Assembly: GCF_019024325.1 (NCBI RefSeq)
Contig: NZ_JAFNJS010000002.1
Location: 558,118-622,117 of the forward strand
Reading direction: 5' to 3'
DNA from: Falsiroseomonas tokyonensis
GTDB taxonomy: Bacteria; Pseudomonadota; Alphaproteobacteria; Acetobacterales; Acetobacteraceae
DNA length: 64,000 nucleotides
Below the pieces are notes generated by a model that did not search any database, was not told the origin of the DNA, and saw only the letters and a program-made list of their open reading frames with translations. Every line of letters begins with the position of its first letter. Positions within the stretch are counted from its first letter, which is position 1. The translations under genes were made by a program, and so were the position numbers. This document shows positions 55,051-64,000 of the stretch, piece by piece.

Positions 55051-55473
55051 GTGCCGCCAGCGCTGGACATCACCATCCCGCCCGACACCGAGGCGGTCGC
55101 GCGCCTGTTGGACGCGCTGGAGGCCTTCGCCGAGGAAGCGGAACTGCCGCCCAAGGTCGCGCATCGCCTGGCCGTGGTGGTGGAGGAACTCGCCGCCAAT
55201 GTCGCCATGCATGGCGGCAGCGGCCCCGGCGCGGCCACCTTCGTCGCCGTCACCGTGCGGCAGCAGGATGGCGCCGTGATCGCCAGCATCGAGGATGACG
55301 GCCGCGCCTTCGACCCCCTGTCCCGCGCCGCGCCGGATACCGAGGCCGCGCTGGAGGATCGCGACGTTGGTGGCCTCGGCGTGCATTTCGTGCGGCAGAT
55401 GACGCGCAGCCTGGACTACAGCCGGGCGGATGGTCGCAACCGGCTGGTCGCCGTGTTGGATGCCTCCGGCTGA
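55051..55473 (+). CDS. RsbW/anti-sigma-type ATP-binding protein
   Basis: Protein of 140 residues, the size of RsbW/SpoIIAB-like serine kinases. The N-box is VVEELAANVAMHGG, followed by the G1-like EDDGRAFDP and G2-like GGLGVHFVRQM. Such proteins bind sigma factors or phosphorylate antagonists, and SpoIIE-type phosphatases act as their counterparts. The GTG at 55051 is the only sensible start; the ribosome site is weak. It opens the chemosensory cluster, and a SpoIIE-type phosphatase is at the other end of the window. No STAS antagonist or sigma factor is seen here. Confidence 0.85.
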   Translation: MPPALDITIPPDTEAVARLLDALEAFAEEAELPPKVAHRLAVVVEELAANVAMHGGSGPGAATFVAVTVRQQDGAVIASIEDDGRAFDPLSRAAPDTEAALEDRDVGGLGVHFVRQMTRSLDYSRADGRNRLVAVLDASG

Positions 55474-55490: not shown

Positions 55491-56273
55491 GTGCAAGCCA
55501 GCGGCCTGGCCGCGCCGGCGTTGAGCGCCGTGCAGGAGAGGCTGGCGGGCCTGGCGGGCTTTTCCGAATCGGAGGTGCTGCGCAACCGGCTGCTGCGCGC
55601 CGCACCGCTGCTCTCCCGCCTGCCGCTCGACCGCGCCAGCATCGACCATCCGGACTGGGCCGCGCTGCTGGATGCGGTGACGGTGCAGGAGACGCGCATG
55701 TTCCGCGCCGCGCCGCAGATCGCCGCCTTCCGGGCCGAGGTGCTGCCGGCGCTCGCCGCGCGCGGGGCGCTGACACTGGTCTCGGCCGGCTGCGCCACGG
55801 GGGAGGAGGCCTGGACGCTGGCCATCCTGGCCGCCGGCGCCGGGGTGCCCTGGCAGGTGGAGGGCCTCGACCTCTGCCGCCCGGCGCTGGAGGCGGCCTT
55901 GGCGGCACGCTACCGCCTCGGCCCGCCCGATGCGCTGCGCGAAGTGCCGCAAGCGGACCGCGCCATGCTCGATATCGCCGATGGCTGGTTCGAGCCGGCC
56001 GAAAACCTGCGCCCGCATGTCGCCTTCCGCCGCGCCAATCTGCTGGATGCCTGCCTGCCGGATGAGGCGGCGGATGCCATCCTCTGCCGCAACGTGCTGA
56101 TCTACATGACAGAAGAAGGCCGGCTTGCGGTGCTGCGACGGCTGGTCGCGGCGCTGCGTCCGGGCGGCGCGCTGCTGCTGGGCCCGACCGACCGGCCGAC
56201 GCGCGACATCGGCCTCAGGCCCTGGTCGCGCGACCTGATCGGCATCTGGCGGCGGGAGGGCGCGGATGGCTGA
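55491..56273 (+). CDS. cheR: Chemotaxis-type protein methyltransferase, CheR-like
   Basis: Protein of 260 residues. The N-terminal helical part contains VTVQETRMFRAAPQI. The S-adenosylmethionine site is LVSAGCATGEEAWTLAIL, and the CheR hallmark CRNVLIYMTEEGR follows. CheR methylates glutamates of chemoreceptors. No receptor gene is nearby, so its target is encoded elsewhere or is unusual. The start is a GTG at 55491; the stop overlaps the next gene by 8 bases. Confidence 0.9.
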   Translation: MQASGLAAPALSAVQERLAGLAGFSESEVLRNRLLRAAPLLSRLPLDRASIDHPDWAALLDAVTVQETRMFRAAPQIAAFRAEVLPALAARGALTLVSAGCATGEEAWTLAILAAGAGVPWQVEGLDLCRPALEAALAARYRLGPPDALREVPQADRAMLDIADGWFEPAENLRPHVAFRRANLLDACLPDEAADAILCRNVLIYMTEEGRLAVLRRLVAALRPGGALLLGPTDRPTRDIGLRPWSRDLIGIWRREGADG

Positions 56274-57441
56274 GGCCCCCGCGGCCCTCCTGGCTGGCGG
56301 CCACGCCTTTGCCCTTCCGGCCGATGCCGAGGTGGTGGAAGCCGCGCCGCTGCGCCCGGCGCCGCTGGCCGGGCCCGGCATGCTGGGCATCGCCGTGGTG
56401 GCGGGGCAGGTGGTGCCGGTGATGGCGGCGGCGCCCGGCCTCCCTGGCGGCCCGGCCTGGGTGCTGCTGGACGGGCCGAATGGCCGCGTCGTGGTGGCCG
56501 GGGAGGCCTTTGCCGAAATCCAGCCCCAGGGTGCGAATCACGGCGCGCCGATGCTGGTGCCGCCGCGCCTGGCCGCGCGCCGCGTGCCGCCGGCGCTGCC
56601 GGCGGGGCCGGGCGGCTGGTCCGTGCCGATGCGCGGCGCCGCTGTGCGGCAGCTGGCGCTGGCGGCGGAGCTTGGCGGGCTGCGCCTGGTGCTGCCCTTC
56701 GCCCTGCTGGAACGGGTCCTCCCCATGCCGGTGCTGCGGCCGGCCCCGGCGGCGGGCGCCGCTGCGCTGGGCTATGCGGTGGCCGCCGGCGCGCCGGTGC
56801 TGGTGCTGGACCCGGCCTGGCTGCTGCAGGCGGATCGCCCCGTGGCGGCGGCCGGGCTGCTGGTGCTGTTCCGCCATGGCGGCCGCCGCCTCGGCCTGCC
56901 CTGCGACCGCATCGGCCCGGCCCGGCCCGGCGAGGCCACGCTGCTGCCGCGGCTGGAGGCGGCGGCCGAGGAACTTGTGGTCGCCCCGCTGGCCGAGGCC
57001 TCGGCGCCGCCGCCCCCCGAACCCAGCCGCGCCTTGCTGCTCTGCGCCGCCGGCGGGCAGGCCTTCGCCTTGCCGGTGGAGGAGGTGGTGGCGGTGATCC
57101 CGCCCATCGCCCCGTCGCCCGCGCCCGGGCTCGCGGAGCACCCGATCCATGGCTTCCGCGGTGTCACGGCGCATCGCGGCGATGTGCTGCCGGTGCTGGA
57201 TGGCGGCCTGCGCCTGGGCGCGACGGAGGTGCTCGGCCGTCACGCCGCGGAAGCGCCGCTGCTGCGCCTGGCCGGGGCGCCGCCGGTGGCGCTGGCGGTC
57301 AGCCATGTCACCGGCCTGCGCCGCATCCCGGAACGGCTGATCGCGGCCGTGGCGGGGGAGGGGCTGGTCTCCGCCGTGGTGGCGATGGCGGAGGCGCCGC
57401 TGCCGGTCTGCCGCGCCGCCGTGCTGGGCGCCCTGAAGTGA
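56266..57441 (+). CDS. Protein with three CheW-like modules
   Basis: Protein of 391 residues, more than twice a normal CheW (~150). Three stretches have CheW-like strand patterns. Residues ~10–85 (FALPADAEVVEAAPLRP, then IAVVAGQVVPVM) are the most degenerate. Residues ~125–225 contain LRLVLPFALLERVLPMP and LVLFRHGGRRLGLPCDRI. Residues ~255–390 contain QAFALPVEEVVAVIPP, FRGVTAHRGDVLPVLDG and LAVSHVTGLRRIPE, the clearest copy. CheW couples receptors to CheA. Three copies suggest a scaffold that joins several CheA or receptor units. It overlaps CheB (GTGA). Confidence 0.78.
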   Translation: MAEAPAALLAGGHAFALPADAEVVEAAPLRPAPLAGPGMLGIAVVAGQVVPVMAAAPGLPGGPAWVLLDGPNGRVVVAGEAFAEIQPQGANHGAPMLVPPRLAARRVPPALPAGPGGWSVPMRGAAVRQLALAAELGGLRLVLPFALLERVLPMPVLRPAPAAGAAALGYAVAAGAPVLVLDPAWLLQADRPVAAAGLLVLFRHGGRRLGLPCDRIGPARPGEATLLPRLEAAAEELVVAPLAEASAPPPPEPSRALLLCAAGGQAFALPVEEVVAVIPPIAPSPAPGLAEHPIHGFRGVTAHRGDVLPVLDGGLRLGATEVLGRHAAEAPLLRLAGAPPVALAVSHVTGLRRIPERLIAAVAGEGLVSAVVAMAEAPLPVCRAAVLGALK

Positions 57442-58475
57442 TCCGCGTCCTTCTCGTCGACGACAGCGGCTTCATGCGCATGGCGCTGCGGCGGATCATC
57501 GAGGCCGAGGGCGACCTGAAGGTGGTCGGCGAGGCCTCGGACGGGGAGGCCGCGATCGAGCAGGCGGCGAAGTTGCGCCCCGATGTCATCGCCATGGATG
57601 TGGAGATGCCGCGCCTCGATGGGCTGGAGGCGACGCGGCGCATCATGGCGCTGCCCGATCCGCCGGCGGTGCTGATGGTCAGCCACCATACCAGCGACGG
57701 CTCCGCCACCGCGCTGGCGGCGCTGGACCGGGGCGCGGTGGATTACCTGTGCAAGGATGGCGACCTCGGCGGCGTCGATCTCTCGATGCTCGATCGCGAA
57801 TTGCGTGGCCGGCTGCGGCACTGGGCCGGGCAGCGCGCCAAGGTGCGGCCGGCGGCGCGGGGCGCGGCGCCGGTGCGGGTGGTGCGGGCGGCGGGCGGGG
57901 CCGATGTGGTGCTGCTCGGCGCCTCCACCGGCGGGCCGGATGCGCTGGCCGCCTTCCTCTCGGCCGCCGGGCGGCTGCCGGTGCCCTGCGTGGTGGCGCA
58001 GCACATGCCGGCCGACCTGGCGCCGGACCTGGCGCAGCACCTGGCCAGGCTTTCGGGCGTGCCGGTCGGCGTCGGGCGCGCGGGGCAGCGGCTGATGTCG
58101 GGCGAGGTCACCGTGATTCCGGGCGGCACGGATGGCCACCTGGCGCGCGGCCCGGGGGTGGATGGCGGCTTCGTCTTGCGGCTCGCGGTCGGCGTCGCGG
58201 CGGTGCATCCTTCGGTGGACCTGCTGTTCCAGTCGGCGGCGCTGGTGGCGCAGCGTGCGCTCGGCGTGGTGCTGACGGGCATGGGGCGGGACGGGCTGCT
58301 GGGGGCGCGGACGATGCAGGACAGGGGCATGCCGGTACTGGCCCAGACGGTGGCGAGCTGCGTCGTCGGCGGCATGCCCGGCGCGCTGATCGAGGCTGGG
58401 CTTGCCATCGAGACGGCGGACCCCGCCGGCCTCGGCCGGCGCGTGGCGGCGCTGGTGCGGGAGAAGGTGGCATGA
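57438..58475 (+). CDS. cheB: Protein-glutamate methylesterase, CheB-like
   Basis: Protein of 345 residues. A receiver domain comes first: VLLVDDSGFMRMALR with the acid pocket and phosphoacceptor Asp in AMDVEMPRLDG. After a linker comes the esterase domain with Ser in LLGASTGGPDA, His in VVAQHMPADL and Asp in GMGRDGLLG. It removes receptor methyl groups and opposes CheR. The GTG at 57438 overlaps the stop before it, and its stop overlaps the next ATG, so the four genes are tightly coupled. Confidence 0.93.
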   Translation: MIRVLLVDDSGFMRMALRRIIEAEGDLKVVGEASDGEAAIEQAAKLRPDVIAMDVEMPRLDGLEATRRIMALPDPPAVLMVSHHTSDGSATALAALDRGAVDYLCKDGDLGGVDLSMLDRELRGRLRHWAGQRAKVRPAARGAAPVRVVRAAGGADVVLLGASTGGPDALAAFLSAAGRLPVPCVVAQHMPADLAPDLAQHLARLSGVPVGVGRAGQRLMSGEVTVIPGGTDGHLARGPGVDGGFVLRLAVGVAAVHPSVDLLFQSAALVAQRALGVVLTGMGRDGLLGARTMQDRGMPVLAQTVASCVVGGMPGALIEAGLAIETADPAGLGRRVAALVREKVA

Positions 58476-59824
58476 CGCCTTCACCCCTGGATCGCGACCT
58501 GCTGGACGCCTTCGTGCCGGAATTCGAGGCCGAGGCGGTCCGGCTCGCCATGGTGCGGGATGCCTCGCAGGCGGGGCGCGCGCTGGACCAGCTGCGCGCC
58601 ATGGCCGCCGCACTCGGCGCGCCCTCGCTGGCCGCGCTGGTGGAGCGGACGGCGCAGGCGCTCGACCCGCTGGACTGGCCCGCCCTGCATGCGGGGGCGG
58701 AGGCGCTGGCGCGGCAGGCGATCGCGATCGGTGCGGCCGGCTCCGACCTGCCGCTGCCCGATTCCGCTGCCGAGGCCCCGCCCGAACCCCCGCCCGCCGA
58801 AGCGCCCGCCACCCTGCTGGACCGGGAGATGCTGGAGGCCCTGGCGCCCGAATTCGCCGCCGGCTGCGCGCGTCTCGCCGCCGCCCCGGATGCGGTGGAG
58901 GCCGGGCGGGCGCTGGACAATCTGCGCGCCATGGCGGGCGCCGTTGGGCTCGCCTCCCTGCTCGCCCTGCTGGCGCCGGCGGCGGGGCTGCTCGACCCCT
59001 ATGATGCGGCCGCGCTGCGCGACCTGGCCGGCAGGCTCGCGGCGCAGGCGGAGCGGATCGTGCAGGCCGGCGCCGATCTGCCGCCGCAGGAGGAGGCCCG
59101 TCCAACCGAGGCCCCGCCGCTGGATCCCGACCTGCTGGCCGCCTTCGCCCCCGAATTCGCCGCCGCCTGCCAAAGGCTCGGCGCCGCCACGGAGGCTGCC
59201 GGCGCGGCGCGGGCGGCGGAGGCGCTGCGCGGCATGGCCGGCGCGCTGGGCCTCGATTCGCTGCGCACCCTGCTCGACGCCCTGCCGCTGGAGCCTTTTG
59301 CAGCCGCGGCGCTGCCCGGCCATGCCGCGGCCCTGGCGGCCCAGGCCCAGGCCATCGTCGCGGCGGGGCACGACCTGCCCCCGCCCGAGGCCGCCCCCGC
59401 CGGTTCGCGCCGCCGCGTGCTGGTGGTGGATGACAGCGCCATGATGCGCCGCCTGGTCCGCGAAACCTTGGCGCTGGATGCGGATTTCGAGGTGGTGGGC
59501 GAGGCCGCGGATGGCGTGCAGGCGCTGGCCGCCATGGCCCGCCTGGCCCCCGACCTGACCATGCTGGATATCGAGATGCCGGAGCTGGACGGCATCGGCG
59601 TGCTGCGTCGCTGGGCGCTGTCGGGTGGCGGCGCGGTGGTCATCGTCTCCTCCGCCGCAAGGCCGGGCTCCGCCACGGCGGCGGAAGCGCGGCGGCTCGG
59701 CGTTGCGGGCATCGTCGGCAAGCCCTCGGGCGCGCTGAGCCCCGACCTGCGCGAGCGCCAGGGCGTGGCGCTGCTGCGCACGGCGCGGCGCGCGGCCGGG
59801 CTGGCGGTGGAGGCGCCGAGATGA
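58472..59824 (+). CDS. Three degenerate Hpt-like modules fused to a receiver domain
   Basis: Protein of 450 residues. Three ~100-residue helical repeats share the opening LLDAFVPEFEA, MLEALAPEFAA or LLAAFAPEFAA, and a core matching the Hpt pattern H-x-L-K-G-x-A-x-x-L-G. The phospho-accepting His is replaced by D39 (ALDQLRAMAAALG), D149 (ALDNLRAMAGAVG) and E250 (AAEALRGMAGALG). A Pro-rich linker then leads to a receiver (about 314–445): VLVVDDSAMMRRL, phosphoacceptor D366 in MLDIEMPELDG, and GIVGKPSG. Hpt domains relay phosphate; these cannot, but the acidic residues may mimic the phosphorylated form. The receiver is the most likely CheA target here. Overlaps cheB by 4 bases. Confidence 0.82.
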   Translation: MTPSPLDRDLLDAFVPEFEAEAVRLAMVRDASQAGRALDQLRAMAAALGAPSLAALVERTAQALDPLDWPALHAGAEALARQAIAIGAAGSDLPLPDSAAEAPPEPPPAEAPATLLDREMLEALAPEFAAGCARLAAAPDAVEAGRALDNLRAMAGAVGLASLLALLAPAAGLLDPYDAAALRDLAGRLAAQAERIVQAGADLPPQEEARPTEAPPLDPDLLAAFAPEFAAACQRLGAATEAAGAARAAEALRGMAGALGLDSLRTLLDALPLEPFAAAALPGHAAALAAQAQAIVAAGHDLPPPEAAPAGSRRRVLVVDDSAMMRRLVRETLALDADFEVVGEAADGVQALAAMARLAPDLTMLDIEMPELDGIGVLRRWALSGGGAVVIVSSAARPGSATAAEARRLGVAGIVGKPSGALSPDLRERQGVALLRTARRAAGLAVEAPR

Positions 59825-59846: not shown

Positions 59847-62453
59847 ATGATCGAAGACGAGGCGCTCTGGCAGGAATTCGCGGGCGAGTCGGAGGACCAC
59901 CTGGATGCGATCGACCGCATCCTCTCGGCCGGCGAGTCCGATCGCGGCGCGGTGGACCGGCTGTTCCGCGCCTTCCATTCGCTGAAGGGCATGTCGGATG
60001 CGCTCGGCGCGCCCGGCATGAAGAACGTCGCGCATCGCTGCGAGGATCTGCTGGGACTGGCCCGGAACGGCCGGCTCGCGGTGCAGGGCGCCGTCGCGGA
60101 CGGTCTGCTGGCCGCGGTCGATACGCTTCGCCGCCAGCGCGCCACGGTGCTGCAGGCGCATCGCGACGTGCCGGCGCCGCCGGACCTGCTGGCCCGCCTG
60201 GCGGCGTTGGCGGAGGGCGGGCCGACCGCGCCCGTGGCGAAGCCTGCGCCCGCCGCGCCGGCGCCTCAGCTCGGTGCCGGCGCGGCGCTGCTGGGCGCGC
60301 TCGCCTCCCGCTTCGAAGCCGCGGCGCCGCTGCTGGCCGGGCTGGTGCAGGACCGCAGGGCGGAGGTGCTGCGCGAGGCCGGGGAGCTGGCCGAGGCGGC
60401 GCGCATGCTGGGCCTCGCGCGTCTTGCCGCCGCGGTGGAGCGGCTGGCCCAGGCGGCGGGCGGGCTGGCCGCGCTGCCGGCGCTCGGCGCGCTGCGCCGC
60501 GGCCTGGTGCTGCTGGCGGAACAGGCCGGGGAGCCGGCAGGGGCCGGGCCGCTGGCGGGGCCCAAGGGCGGCGAATCCGTCGCGCTGGGGCCGCGCCTGG
60601 CGGCGCTGACCCTGCAGCTGGAGGCAGCCCTGGCCGGTGGCGACGCCACCGCCGCCATGGCCGGGGCGGAGGAGGCCGCCGAGGTCGCCGCCGCCTTCGG
60701 GCTGGAGGGGCTGGAACACCTTCTGCTGGCCGTGGGCGACCTGGCGGATCGCGCGGCGGATCCGGATGCGGCGGCGATCCTCGCCGCCCAGGGCCCCGCC
60801 ATCGTCGAGCGCCTGCGCAATGCGGCGGAGGGCGGGCTGGCGGCGCTGCGGGGGGTGGCGGAGGCGCTGCCGGGCACGGACCCGGCCGATCCGCGCATCC
60901 CCCCCGGCTTCGCCACGCTGCTGGGCGCCGAGGGGCGCCGCCGGGTGATCGCGGCGCTGGAGGGCGGCCGGCTGCTGGTGCGACTGCGCATGGCCATCGG
61001 CGTGCCGGCGGAGCTGGAGGCGGCGGTCGCCGCCGCGCTGGCGGCGGAGGCCGAGGTGCTGACCAGCCGCACCGTGCTGGACGGCCAGCCGCCGCATCTC
61101 GACATGCTGCTGGCCGGCCCGTCGGACTTCGATTTGTTGTCCCGCGCCCTGACCGCCGCCGACCCGGCCCGCCGCGTGGTGCTGGACCTGGCCCCGGCCG
61201 AGACCGGCCCGGCCCCCGAGACCCCGCCCGGCCGCGCCGCCCCCGTGACCATGCGGGTGCGGCAGGAGACGATCGACCAGATCATCGCGCTGGAGACCGA
61301 GGTGCGCGCCGCCGCCCTGGCGCTGGCGGAGGCGCTGGACGATGGCGGCGCGACGGAGGCGCTGGCCGTGCTCGGCGCGCTGGAACGCCGCCTGCCGCCC
61401 GGCGCGGCGCGCGAGCTGGGCGGCGCGCTCGGCCGGCTGCGGCAATTGCAGGAGACGCTGGAGCGCACGGAGAACCGCCTGGCCGTCGGGATGCGCCGGC
61501 TTGATGATGCGGTAATGGAGTTGCGCGTGGTGCCGGTGGGCACGCTGTTCGGCCGGCTGCCGCGGGTGGTCCGCGCCGTGGCCCAGGCCTCGGGCCGCGA
61601 GGTCGAGCTGGTGATGGAGGGCGAGGACGTCACCATCGACCGCAGCCTGGTCGAATTGCTGGCCGACCCGCTGCTGCACCTGACCCGCAACGCCGTGGAC
61701 CATGGCATCGAACCGCCGGAGGAGCGGGAGGCCGCAGGCAAGCCGCGGCGCGGCACGCTGCGGGTTTCCGCCGCGCGGCGCACCGGCCAGGTGCGGGTGC
61801 GGGTTTCCGAGGATGGGCGGGGAATCGACCGCGGCCGCGTGCTGGCGCGTGCCATCGATCGCGGCCTTGTCTCCCCCGAGCAGGCCGCGGCGATGGGGGA
61901 GGAGGAGGTGCATGCGCTGCTCTTCCGCCCCGGCTTCTCCACCGCCGAGGCCGTGACGGAAACCTCCGGCCGTGGCGTCGGGCTGGACGTGGTGCAGGAT
62001 GCGATCCGCCGCGCCGGCGGCACGGTGGAGATCGCCAGCGCGCCAGGGCAGGGCACCAGCTTCACCCTGCGCCTGCCGCTGACCGCCGCGGTGCAGCCCG
62101 TGCTGCTGGTGGAATCCGGCGGCCATCCCTATGCCCTGCCGGCGGCGCGGGTGGAGGCGGTGCTGGAGGCCGGCGCCTCGGCGGGCTGCGAGGTGCTGGC
62201 GCTGGACCGCCTGGTGGGCGCGACCGGCCGGCCGCCGGCGGGCGGCGGGGCCATCGTGATCGTGAAGTCTGGCGGCCGCAGCTTCGGCCTGGCGGTGGAC
62301 CGGGTGCAGCGGCGCACCGACCTGCTGCTGCGGCCGATGCATCCCGCGCTCTCCGCCCTGCCGGGCATCGGCGGCGTCGGCGTGCTGGGCAATGGGGAGC
62401 CGGTGGTGGTTCTGGAACCGGATGGGTTCGCGCCCGAAGTGACGCCCGGGTGA
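59847..62453 (+). CDS. cheA: Chemotaxis histidine kinase, CheA-like
   Basis: Protein of 868 residues. P1 has the phosphorylated H44 in RAFHSLKGMSDALG. Residues ~140–440 are a long Ala/Leu-rich insert; two stretches (around 179 and 275) fit the Hpt spacing but have Gly and Glu at the His position. A dimerisation helix pair follows (about 470–550). The ATPase has the N-box HLTRNAVDHGIEP (about 609–621), G1 EDGRGID and G2 TSGRGVGLDVV. P5 (about 750–865) is CheW-like. It autophosphorylates H44 and passes phosphate to receivers in CheB and the preceding protein. It starts 22 bases after that gene. Confidence 0.92.
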   Translation: MIEDEALWQEFAGESEDHLDAIDRILSAGESDRGAVDRLFRAFHSLKGMSDALGAPGMKNVAHRCEDLLGLARNGRLAVQGAVADGLLAAVDTLRRQRATVLQAHRDVPAPPDLLARLAALAEGGPTAPVAKPAPAAPAPQLGAGAALLGALASRFEAAAPLLAGLVQDRRAEVLREAGELAEAARMLGLARLAAAVERLAQAAGGLAALPALGALRRGLVLLAEQAGEPAGAGPLAGPKGGESVALGPRLAALTLQLEAALAGGDATAAMAGAEEAAEVAAAFGLEGLEHLLLAVGDLADRAADPDAAAILAAQGPAIVERLRNAAEGGLAALRGVAEALPGTDPADPRIPPGFATLLGAEGRRRVIAALEGGRLLVRLRMAIGVPAELEAAVAAALAAEAEVLTSRTVLDGQPPHLDMLLAGPSDFDLLSRALTAADPARRVVLDLAPAETGPAPETPPGRAAPVTMRVRQETIDQIIALETEVRAAALALAEALDDGGATEALAVLGALERRLPPGAARELGGALGRLRQLQETLERTENRLAVGMRRLDDAVMELRVVPVGTLFGRLPRVVRAVAQASGREVELVMEGEDVTIDRSLVELLADPLLHLTRNAVDHGIEPPEEREAAGKPRRGTLRVSAARRTGQVRVRVSEDGRGIDRGRVLARAIDRGLVSPEQAAAMGEEEVHALLFRPGFSTAEAVTETSGRGVGLDVVQDAIRRAGGTVEIASAPGQGTSFTLRLPLTAAVQPVLLVESGGHPYALPAARVEAVLEAGASAGCEVLALDRLVGATGRPPAGGGAIVIVKSGGRSFGLAVDRVQRRTDLLLRPMHPALSALPGIGGVGVLGNGEPVVVLEPDGFAPEVTPG

Positions 62454-62588
62454 AACCCGCGGGCGTTTCGGGCGCTGGACGCTGCACGCCGGCGAGGCTA
62501 GAGCCCGGCCTCTGCCGCGTGTTCTGCGATTCGTCTCCTGATCTGCTGCTTCGCTGCGTGGCCTGATGTTGTGTGGAAGGACTTGCCC

Positions 62589-63158
62589 GTGATTGACCGT
62601 CGCCATGCGCTCGGTGCCGGCGGCCTCGCGCTGCTGCTGGCCGCCTGCCAAAAAGTGGTTCCGCCGCGAATCCTGCCGGAGGACGGCACCATCGACCTGC
62701 TGACACTGCTGCGCGGCAAGCCGGAGCATCGCCGCTTCGCCGCCGCGCTGACGGTGGCCGGCGCGGCGCCGCGGCTCGGCCTGCGCAGCGGCGCGGTGAC
62801 GCTTTTCGCCCCGGTGAATGAGGGCTTCGACGGGCTGCCGGCGCCGGTGCTGGCGCTGCTGGACAATCCGCCCGAGAACCCGACCGAGGCGCAGCGCGCT
62901 TTGGTGCAGCCCATCGTCTTCGCCAATGCCGCCTTCGGCCTGCTGCGGCTGGAGGATATCGCGGCGCGCCGCAATGTGGTGGTGACCTGGGACCGCGCCC
63001 GGCTGATGGTGCAGCCGACCGGCGCCCGCACCGCGACGCTGGCGCGCGAGGGTGTGACCCCCGTGGCCGGCCGGGCCCCGGTGGCCGTGACGCGGGCCAA
63101 TGTGCTGGCCTCCGACGGCGTCTTCCACGTGACCAACGCGCCGGTCCTGCCGGGCTGA
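62589..63158 (+). CDS. FAS1 (fasciclin)-domain lipoprotein
   Basis: Protein of 189 residues. The GTG at 62589 is preferred because GGAAGGA lies 7 bases upstream; the GTG at 62571 has none. The N-terminus ALGAGGLALLLAAC is a lipoprotein signal with the lipobox Cys. The FAS1 hallmarks follow: VTLFAPVNEGFDGLPA and, at the end, VTRANVLASDGVFHVTNAPVLP. FAS1 proteins act in adhesion or surface attachment. It lies 135 bases behind CheA on the same strand; a link to the sensory cluster is possible but not shown. Confidence 0.82.
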   Translation: MIDRRHALGAGGLALLLAACQKVVPPRILPEDGTIDLLTLLRGKPEHRRFAAALTVAGAAPRLGLRSGAVTLFAPVNEGFDGLPAPVLALLDNPPENPTEAQRALVQPIVFANAAFGLLRLEDIAARRNVVVTWDRARLMVQPTGARTATLAREGVTPVAGRAPVAVTRANVLASDGVFHVTNAPVLPG

Positions 63159-63206: not shown

Positions 63207-64000
63207 CTAGCCAGCGTAGCGCAGCGCAAGGGCGGTGATGTCGTCCGCCTGCGGGGCGCCGTTGGCGAAGGCGGTCACGGCGCGCAGCACGGTATCCACC
63301 ACCTCGCGCGGGTCGGTGCCGGCGGCGGCCAGGGCCTGTTCCAGGCGGTCCCGCCCGAAGAAGCCGCCCTTGTCGTCCTCGGCTTCCGACACGCCGTCGG
63401 AATAGCAGAACATGGTCTGCCCGGACTTCAGCTGGAAGGGGTCGGAGGCATAGGGGATGCCCTCCATCACCCCCAGCGCCGGCTGGCGGCGCAGCTTTTC
63501 CATTAGCCGCGGCGCGGCGCCGGCGGCCACCAGGATGGGAATGTCGTGGCCGGCCACCGCGATCCGCCCGGCGCCGGTGGTGCCATCGATCACGCCCACT
63601 ACGACGGTGACGAAGGTCTGGCTCTCATTGTCGATCGCCAGGTCGTCATTGGTCATGGCCAGGATCGCGCCCGGATCCGGCGCGCCATCGGCGGGCGCGA
63701 GGCGCTTGGCGGCGGCGCGCATCAGGCCCAGCGTGCGCGCCATGGTCAGCCCCGCCGGCGCGCCCTTGCCCGAGACATCGGCCACCGCGAACAGCATGTG
63801 CTTCGCATCCAGCCGGATGCAGTCGTAGAGATCGCCGCCCACCTGCCGCGCCGGCACCATGGCCGCATGCACGGCCAACTGCCCGGTGGCCGCCCCCGGG
63901 AAATCGCGCGGGACGAGGGAGAGCTGCGCGGCGCGGGCCGATTCCAACTCTGCCTCCAGCGCCGCCAGCCGGGCATCGGCCAGGTCGCGCAGCCGCTTCT
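63207..64000 (-). CDS. SpoIIE/PP2C-type serine phosphatase (5' part outside window)
   Basis: The visible 264 codons hold a complete PPM/SpoIIE domain. Metal-binding motifs are GGDLYDC, AVADVSGKG, CYSDGVSEAED and PQADDITALALR. The reading frame runs on without a start to the right edge (RLRDLADARLAALEAELESA, a coiled-coil-like linker), so the N-terminal sensor or HAMP part is outside. SpoIIE-type enzymes dephosphorylate STAS antagonists of RsbW-like kinases. With the RsbW-like gene at 55051 it could form a partner-switching output for this cluster (inference). It is convergent with the FAS1 gene. Confidence 0.9.
   Translation of the reverse strand, partial: KRLRDLADARLAALEAELESARAAQLSLVPRDFPGAATGQLAVHAAMVPARQVGGDLYDCIRLDAKHMLFAVADVSGKGAPAGLTMARTLGLMRAAAKRLAPADGAPDPGAILAMTNDDLAIDNESQTFVTVVVGVIDGTTGAGRIAVAGHDIPILVAAGAAPRLMEKLRRQPALGVMEGIPYASDPFQLKSGQTMFCYSDGVSEAEDDKGGFFGRDRLEQALAAAGTDPREVVDTVLRAVTAFANGAPQADDITALALRYAG

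Follow-up and report, generated by a model that had tools for sequence, protein, structure and literature searches.

Several signalling systems contain Hpt domains that lack the acceptor histidine or pair a receiver closely with the P1 (Hpt) domain of a chemosensory kinase. One such pairing is that of CheY6 with the P1 domain of CheA3 from Rhodobacter (Cereibacter) sphaeroides, which have been co-crystallised (3kyi/3kyj): Met13 of CheY6 inserts in a pocket that lies on helices A and B of P1, and residues A12-M13 determine specificity (PMC2817712, in the parts of the article available). Histidine-less domains are represented by FimL, whose two Hpt acceptor sites are both occupied by Gln (PMC3019171) and which aids polar recruitment of the receiver PilG (PMC10519157), both as described in the accessible portions of these papers, and by the plant proteins AHP6/PHP1 and rice PHPs, which are described as negative regulators in the available part of PMC12115143. 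Here we analyse a chemosensory cluster of Falsiroseomonas tokyonensis, contained in a stretch of 64,000 nucleotides (the window), in which a separate gene, termed X, precedes cheA and encodes three pseudo-Hpt units followed by a receiver.

Gene X and its chemosensory cluster

The features of the window to which we refer are as follows.

55051..55473, plus strand: HATPase_c_2 (RsbW-like) protein (Pfam; synteny)
55491..56273, plus strand: CheR (Pfam)
56266..57441, plus strand: protein with three CheW matches (Pfam, 3 stretches)
57438..58475, plus strand: CheB, receiver and methylesterase (Pfam)
58472..59824, plus strand: gene X, 450 aa, three pseudo-Hpt units and a CheY6-type receiver (frame, Pfam, AlphaFold2)
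58493..58738, plus strand: pseudo-Hpt unit 1, residues 8-89, four helices (AlphaFold2; profile match to CheA P1)
58586..58588, plus strand: D39 codon, phospho-His column
58823..59068, plus strand: pseudo-Hpt unit 2, residues 118-199 (AlphaFold2; repeat identity)
58916..58918, plus strand: D149 codon, phospho-His column
59126..59365, plus strand: pseudo-Hpt unit 3, residues 219-298, at the position held by the lone unit in other genera
59219..59221, plus strand: E250 codon, phospho-His column
59411..59794, plus strand: receiver with KPSG loop, residues 314-441; nearest solved sequence CheY6
59438..59443, plus strand: A323-M324, equivalent to the 'Met finger' A12-M13 of CheY6 (alignment; role from the available part of PMC2817712)
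59567..59569, plus strand: codon of D366, the phospho-acceptor
59847..62453, plus strand: CheA; P1 His44 intact (codon 59976-59978), P1 nearest to CheA3 P1
63207..64000, minus strand: C-terminal part of a receiver-SpoIIE phosphatase that extends beyond the window end (whole gene L118:13325-14506)

The ATG of X at 58472 overlaps the cheB stop, and its own stop ends at 59824. We infer a start at 58472 within a frame that is open from 57749; homologues align from about residue 5 onward. Pfam recognizes the receiver at residues 316-419 (65 bits), and D366, like D39, D149 and E250, stands where the earlier note had placed it.

A tblastn comparison of 11 Acetobacteraceae loci matched X, the CheA and the CheW protein in every one, CheB and CheR in 10, the RsbW-like ATPase also in 10, and the receiver-SpoIIE phosphatase and an MCP in 7. 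The same method gave no match to RsbW or SpoIIE in 5 loci of other families, two of which are shorter than 11 kb. A STAS protein, named by eye from its sequence, lies between the RsbW-like gene and cheR in L145 and L147; in the window's genome its closest relative (63% identity) is about 41 kb beyond cheA. The chemosensory system probably drives a partner switch, as judged from gene content, in which case X, CheB and the receiver-SpoIIE protein would all draw on one P1.

Some further observations concern the neighbourhood. The cluster is linked to a partner-switch set comprising the RsbW-like ATPase, the receiver-SpoIIE phosphatase and the MCP (55051-55473, 63207-64000 and L118:13325-16146). 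The three CheW matches at 56266-57441 lie in one polypeptide, not in separate CheWs, with a relative in 11/11 family loci. A small fasciclin-domain protein is encoded at 62571-63158, between cheA and the receiver-SpoIIE gene; it is matched again in L159, and the other 9 family loci gave no match (tblastn).

Histidine-less units, present as copies in the triple proteins

The earlier note had described three consecutive Hpt-like modules without the acceptor histidine, and AlphaFold2 indeed predicts a four-helix bundle for all three. With 11 sequences, full-length X was modelled as three such units plus a receiver (pLDDT 85.1, pTM 0.37, a value at which domain packing cannot be read), with helices at residues 8-27, 31-48, 51-61 and 69-89 in unit 1, 118-136, 141-158, 161-174 and 179-199 in unit 2, and 219-238, 242-258, 262-269 and 278-298 in unit 3. 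Unit 1 alone, modelled from 38 unit sequences, reached pLDDT 94.5 and pTM 0.86. A Foldseek search with this model returned the P1 domain of T. maritima CheA first (E=0.14), CheA3 P1 third and plant Hpts fourth and sixth, interspersed with unrelated helical bundles such as cytochromes c' and GPCR constructs, a result consistent with a P1 fold but not decisive; the listing obtained with full X was filled by receivers.

Sequence comparisons agree on the register. In a MAFFT alignment with the neighbouring CheA P1, His44 falls on D39. A profile of 38 units searched against PDB sequences matched T. maritima CheA P1 best (E=0.0011), again with the His under the Asp column; with a designed repeat protein next at 0.0019 and HLA chains from 0.04 upward, this match is weak and the profile not very specific. 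The hhalign comparison with CheA P1s gave the same register at a probability of 25% (E=7.6e-4), using a P1 alignment of 43 rows drawn mostly from these clusters, with some genomes present twice and with L043 and L059 from other bacteria. D39, D149 and E250 stand at the phospho-histidine position, as first proposed. The Pfam Hpt model (PF01627) scored 10.6 bits on X and 15.7 bits on unit 1, both under the cut-off of 24.6, and matched 15 of 38 units at E<=1 (best 2.4e-4).

To what extent is the substitution conserved? Among 59 relatives searched with X, triple proteins occurred in 8 of the 15 genomes (G000-G014) that belong to genus g1, which we take as Falsiroseomonas, the seven named copies being three Falsiroseomonas, three Roseomonas and one labelled Acetobacteraceae only. 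An alignment of unit plus receiver, searched in 397 Acetobacteraceae genomes, identified X in 44 (G337 by a short match); adding G005 and G013 from the search of relatives brings the X-bearing genomes to 46, in eight genera of one family. The 44 X proteins that we read, 8 triple and 36 single, contain 60 units. Two X-bearing genomes are outside this set: G378, partly masked (L096/L117), and G337, with a short frame (L115) whose unit has Ala at the His column by eye. L114, which is not an X, was left out, and second readings of one genome were counted once (L031-L037, repeating L002-L008; L071-L076, L078, L080 and L081; L093, the same as L116; and L119-L134).

None of the 60 units has His at the phospho-His column. 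Asp or Glu occupies it in 41/41 units of g1, g4, g6, g12 and g17, a non-acidic residue in 19/19 units of g69, g97 and g126 (Ala 16, Val 2, Asn 1), and in these last three genera X has the same gene place (one to two loci each). Within the acidic group, codons at the column vary synonymously and the sole replacement is Asp-Glu; column 39 is 100% acidic and ranks 13 of 92 in conservation, its neighbour, column 40, 87. The residues are thus not random, as the earlier note had anticipated. Acidity is a stable trait within a clade and not a requirement of the architecture. Around the column in helix B, most units, acidic and non-acidic alike, retain R36 (-3), L41 (+2), R42 (+3; Lys in P1), A/G43 (+4), M/L44 (+5) and A45 (+6). 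At column 61, the counterpart of a conserved P1 Glu, Asp and Glu together account for no more than roughly one fifth of the weight. This pattern is suggestive of an acceptor lost while the surrounding helix was kept, some of the positions being helix core.

Genus g97 (L109-L113) differs in that its unit is shortened, leaving 65-79 aa ahead of the receiver. The unit looks weakly constrained and may be either in decay or small from the outset. The receiver residues of these proteins are intact despite the short unit.

The repeats are copies of one another. Within any one of the 8 triple proteins, the units show 43-60% identity to each other, and units 1 and 2 of X share 49 identities, compared with a mean of 13 and a maximum of 25 in 5000 shuffles. 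A unit tree was built from 59 units and 92 columns (few for the number of rows), with the acid column kept in as one of the 92 and L116 excluded for an insertion. All 8 copies of unit 1 group in a single starred clade. Those of unit 3 also come together, less well supported (89/74), and those of unit 2 do so in 7 of 8 proteins, the unit 2 of L008 lying beside unit 1; the 40 acidic units included also form one starred clade (97/91). Since the units are duplicates, the most plausible reading of the three acids within a protein is a single inherited state, and we reject three independent acidic replacements. By composition alone, three acids at one column have a probability of 0.0024, but in 8/8 triple proteins every repeat is acidic at columns 7, 17 and 92 as well as at 39.

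Partner kinase, receiver and origin

The earlier note had X encoded just ahead of CheA, and this arrangement proved general: a CheA with the P1 His comes after X in 44 of the 44 proteins read, as scored by a motif search that left the His residue free and required the flanking residues. Among PDB sequences, the closest to the cluster's P1 is CheA3 P1 (E=4.7e-14). With the window's P1 as query, 50 of 397 genomes matched at E<=1e-10. The strong matches (E<=5e-18) fall in 45 places of 44 genomes, identical by hand comparison to the 44 of 397 with X; one X-bearing genome has a second strong place apart from X, and six genomes have weaker P1 matches alone, without X. By eye, CheA also contains two helical-looking, alanine-rich stretches at about residues 140-350 that resemble Hpt; compared by hhalign as further pseudo-Hpts, these stretches gave probabilities of 5.6% and 3.5%, which do not confirm the resemblance.

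The receiver of X has its acidic pair DD, phospho-Asp D, SS and K in all 44 proteins (43 by pattern; L091, with KPAG, by eye). Among PDB sequences it matches CheY6 best (E=2.7e-25), followed by the T. maritima CheB receiver (3.3e-20); by fold, Foldseek places the latter first and CheY6 twelfth. X carries A323-M324 at the place of CheY6 A12-M13 in the alignment, and the A-M pair is present in 26 of 44 X proteins, the others having P-T (10), A-T (3), A-L (2), R-T (2) or P-L (1). For comparison, plain receivers outside the family have Met at the finger position in 2 of 7 cases and A-M in none, and CheB receivers have Phe in 7/7. Mapped by hand through alignments, the Met-finger pocket of CheA3 P1 corresponds in the units to L10, A13, F14, M44, A47 and L48, all small or hydrophobic in the acidic clade; these positions are partly helix core and might be conserved anyway. 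From these alignments we classify the X receiver as CheY6-type and regard its phosphorylation by the neighbouring CheA as putative. A CheY6 search of 385 genomes of the class at E<=1e-28, an overly strict threshold, gave no match.

Besides the window's genome, 9 of the 385 genomes of the class matched the X model at E<=1e-38, all from model position 67 on, that is, in receiver and linker. In three of these nine (L135, L137 and L143), which lie outside the family, a plain receiver stands between cheB and a cheA with the P1 His. In a receiver tree rooted on CheB, a root of our choosing for which CheB was sought in 8 loci and taken from 7, the X receivers group in a single starred clade (100/99), whose sister is L135 (97/79). 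CheB receivers form a starred clade of their own, and X lies with the plain receivers of other families, which leads us to reject the simple derivation of its receiver from the neighbouring CheB. Acid versus non-acid requires two changes on this tree, in which three Asp proteins of g17 group with g69 and g126 at modest support; in the unit tree, the same three join the acidic clade. Across the order, 27 of the 250 genomes searched contained X, every one of them from Acetobacteraceae, and a plasmid search with X returned two short matches, to the receiver part only. The simplest history would be a plain receiver between cheB and cheA, the gain of one pseudo-P1, and triplication in g1.

What the units may do

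Our preferred reading, held tentatively and with a little less than even confidence, is that X is a CheY6-type response regulator that gained one or more histidine-less P1-like domains, triplicated in Falsiroseomonas, which dock receivers. X would be the response regulator of a CheA3/CheY6-like chemosensory cluster, and a domain related to CheA P1 (Hpt) but without the histidine would have been gained at its N terminus in Acetobacteraceae and tripled in g1. The units, presumably incapable of carrying phosphate, would probably dock receivers through the old P1 face, be these the receiver of X itself or those of CheB and the receiver-SpoIIE phosphatase, by analogy with FimL. X may thereby compete with the CheA P1, or keep receivers near it, and so tune where phosphate goes; the acid would be a fixed trait of one clade and at most of local importance. 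A contact surface is favoured because the Asp/Glu clade is strict and helix B is kept.

The shortened g97 unit and the variable His column favour instead a structural spacer or oligomerisation domain, in which the units would be decayed P1 copies kept as helical bundles alone. We consider this unlikely but worth taking seriously: the low Pfam scores and the Ala, Val or Asn of three genera fit it, but a decayed copy does not readily account for Asp or Glu in every unit of five genera, with synonymous codon changes and Asp-Glu exchange only, or for a helix B motif retained in acidic and non-acidic groups alike.

A second alternative, which we judge unlikely, is that the units mimic P1 as pseudosubstrates and dock on the ATPase domain (P4) of CheA, three copies giving avidity; P1 phosphorylation would be lowered and the X receiver placed at the kinase. 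The linkage of X to CheA agrees with this, as does a P1-like helix B kept around a position that is never His in the units read, whatever the substitute. The P1 surfaces facing the receiver and P4 are expected to overlap, however, and conservation cannot separate this reading from receiver docking. Rice pseudo-Hpts interact with cytokinin receptors as well as response regulators, which is in line with kinase docking, and a receptor contact of Arabidopsis AHP6 is called only probable, both in the available part of PMC12115143.

It is improbable that a unit sits on the receiver active site and the residue at its His position helps or blocks hydrolysis of the aspartyl-phosphate. CheA3 is a specific CheY6-P phosphatase (PMC2924250, in the part available) whose middle region has two His-less Hpt domains (PMC10782961), and the X receiver is CheY6-like; yet neither the available part of PMC2924250 nor PMC10782961 assigns the activity to the pseudo-Hpts, and the Ala or Val of 18/60 units could not serve as base or amide helper. 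Very improbable is the earlier note's suggestion of a fixed mimic of phosphorylated P1, whose carboxylates would stand in for phospho-histidine and keep the attached receiver fixed in one state: the acid throughout five genera (41/41 units) and the single acidic clade (40 units, 97/91, in a tree that includes the acid column) speak for it, but the three acids are duplicates, three other columns share this acidity in every repeat of the 8 triple proteins, the receiver tree needs two acid/non-acid changes, and g69, g97 and g126 have Ala, Val or Asn in 19/19 units with X in the same gene place, so that 'phosphomimetic' can be at most the trait of one clade.

Receiver docking also admits a bolder and doubtful form, in which X is a decoy donor fused to an acceptor. 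The pseudo-P1 would dock the receivers of the real P1, in cis and in trans, and set kinase reach and phosphate lifetime; the carboxylate of one clade would have been selected to tune the contact, and a tripled domain would mean tripled docking sites. If true, X would represent a distinct class of phosphate-flow regulator.

In the open-access literature (top-ranked matches; subscription journals mostly absent), we found no description of a pseudo-Hpt plus receiver protein beside cheA. X also exemplifies the gain and triplication of a domain in a gene that keeps its place between cheB and cheA, and its natural Asp/Glu and Ala/Val/Asn variants, together with differences in copy number, make the role of His-less Hpts directly testable. 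Unlike X, FimL presumably lacks a receiver of its own, and we take the plant pseudo-phosphotransmitters to carry no fused receiver.

By description, the units resemble those plant proteins (AHP6/PHP1 and rice PHPs), which are of Hpt type and lack the acceptor His (PMC12115143, available part). Pseudomonas aeruginosa FimL, also likened to X by description only, has Hpt-like domains without the acceptor His in a chemosensory context, helps to recruit a receiver (PMC10519157) and is related to the ChpA N terminus (PMC3019171, available part). The CheY6/CheA3 P1 pair of R. sphaeroides shares with the X cluster the KPSG loop, the A-M pair and a CheA3-like P1, but CheY6 in the solved structure is a receiver alone (a 145-residue chain), whereas X has one or three pseudo-Hpt units ahead of it. 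CheA3 and ChpA have, as in the X cluster, His-less Hpt domains beside working Hpts in one system (PMC10782961). Theirs lie inside large kinases, however, whereas X is encoded on its own and carries a receiver: a small one-receiver protein with one or three His-less domains, next to its presumed kinase, and thus a compact system for asking what histidine-less phosphotransfer domains are for.
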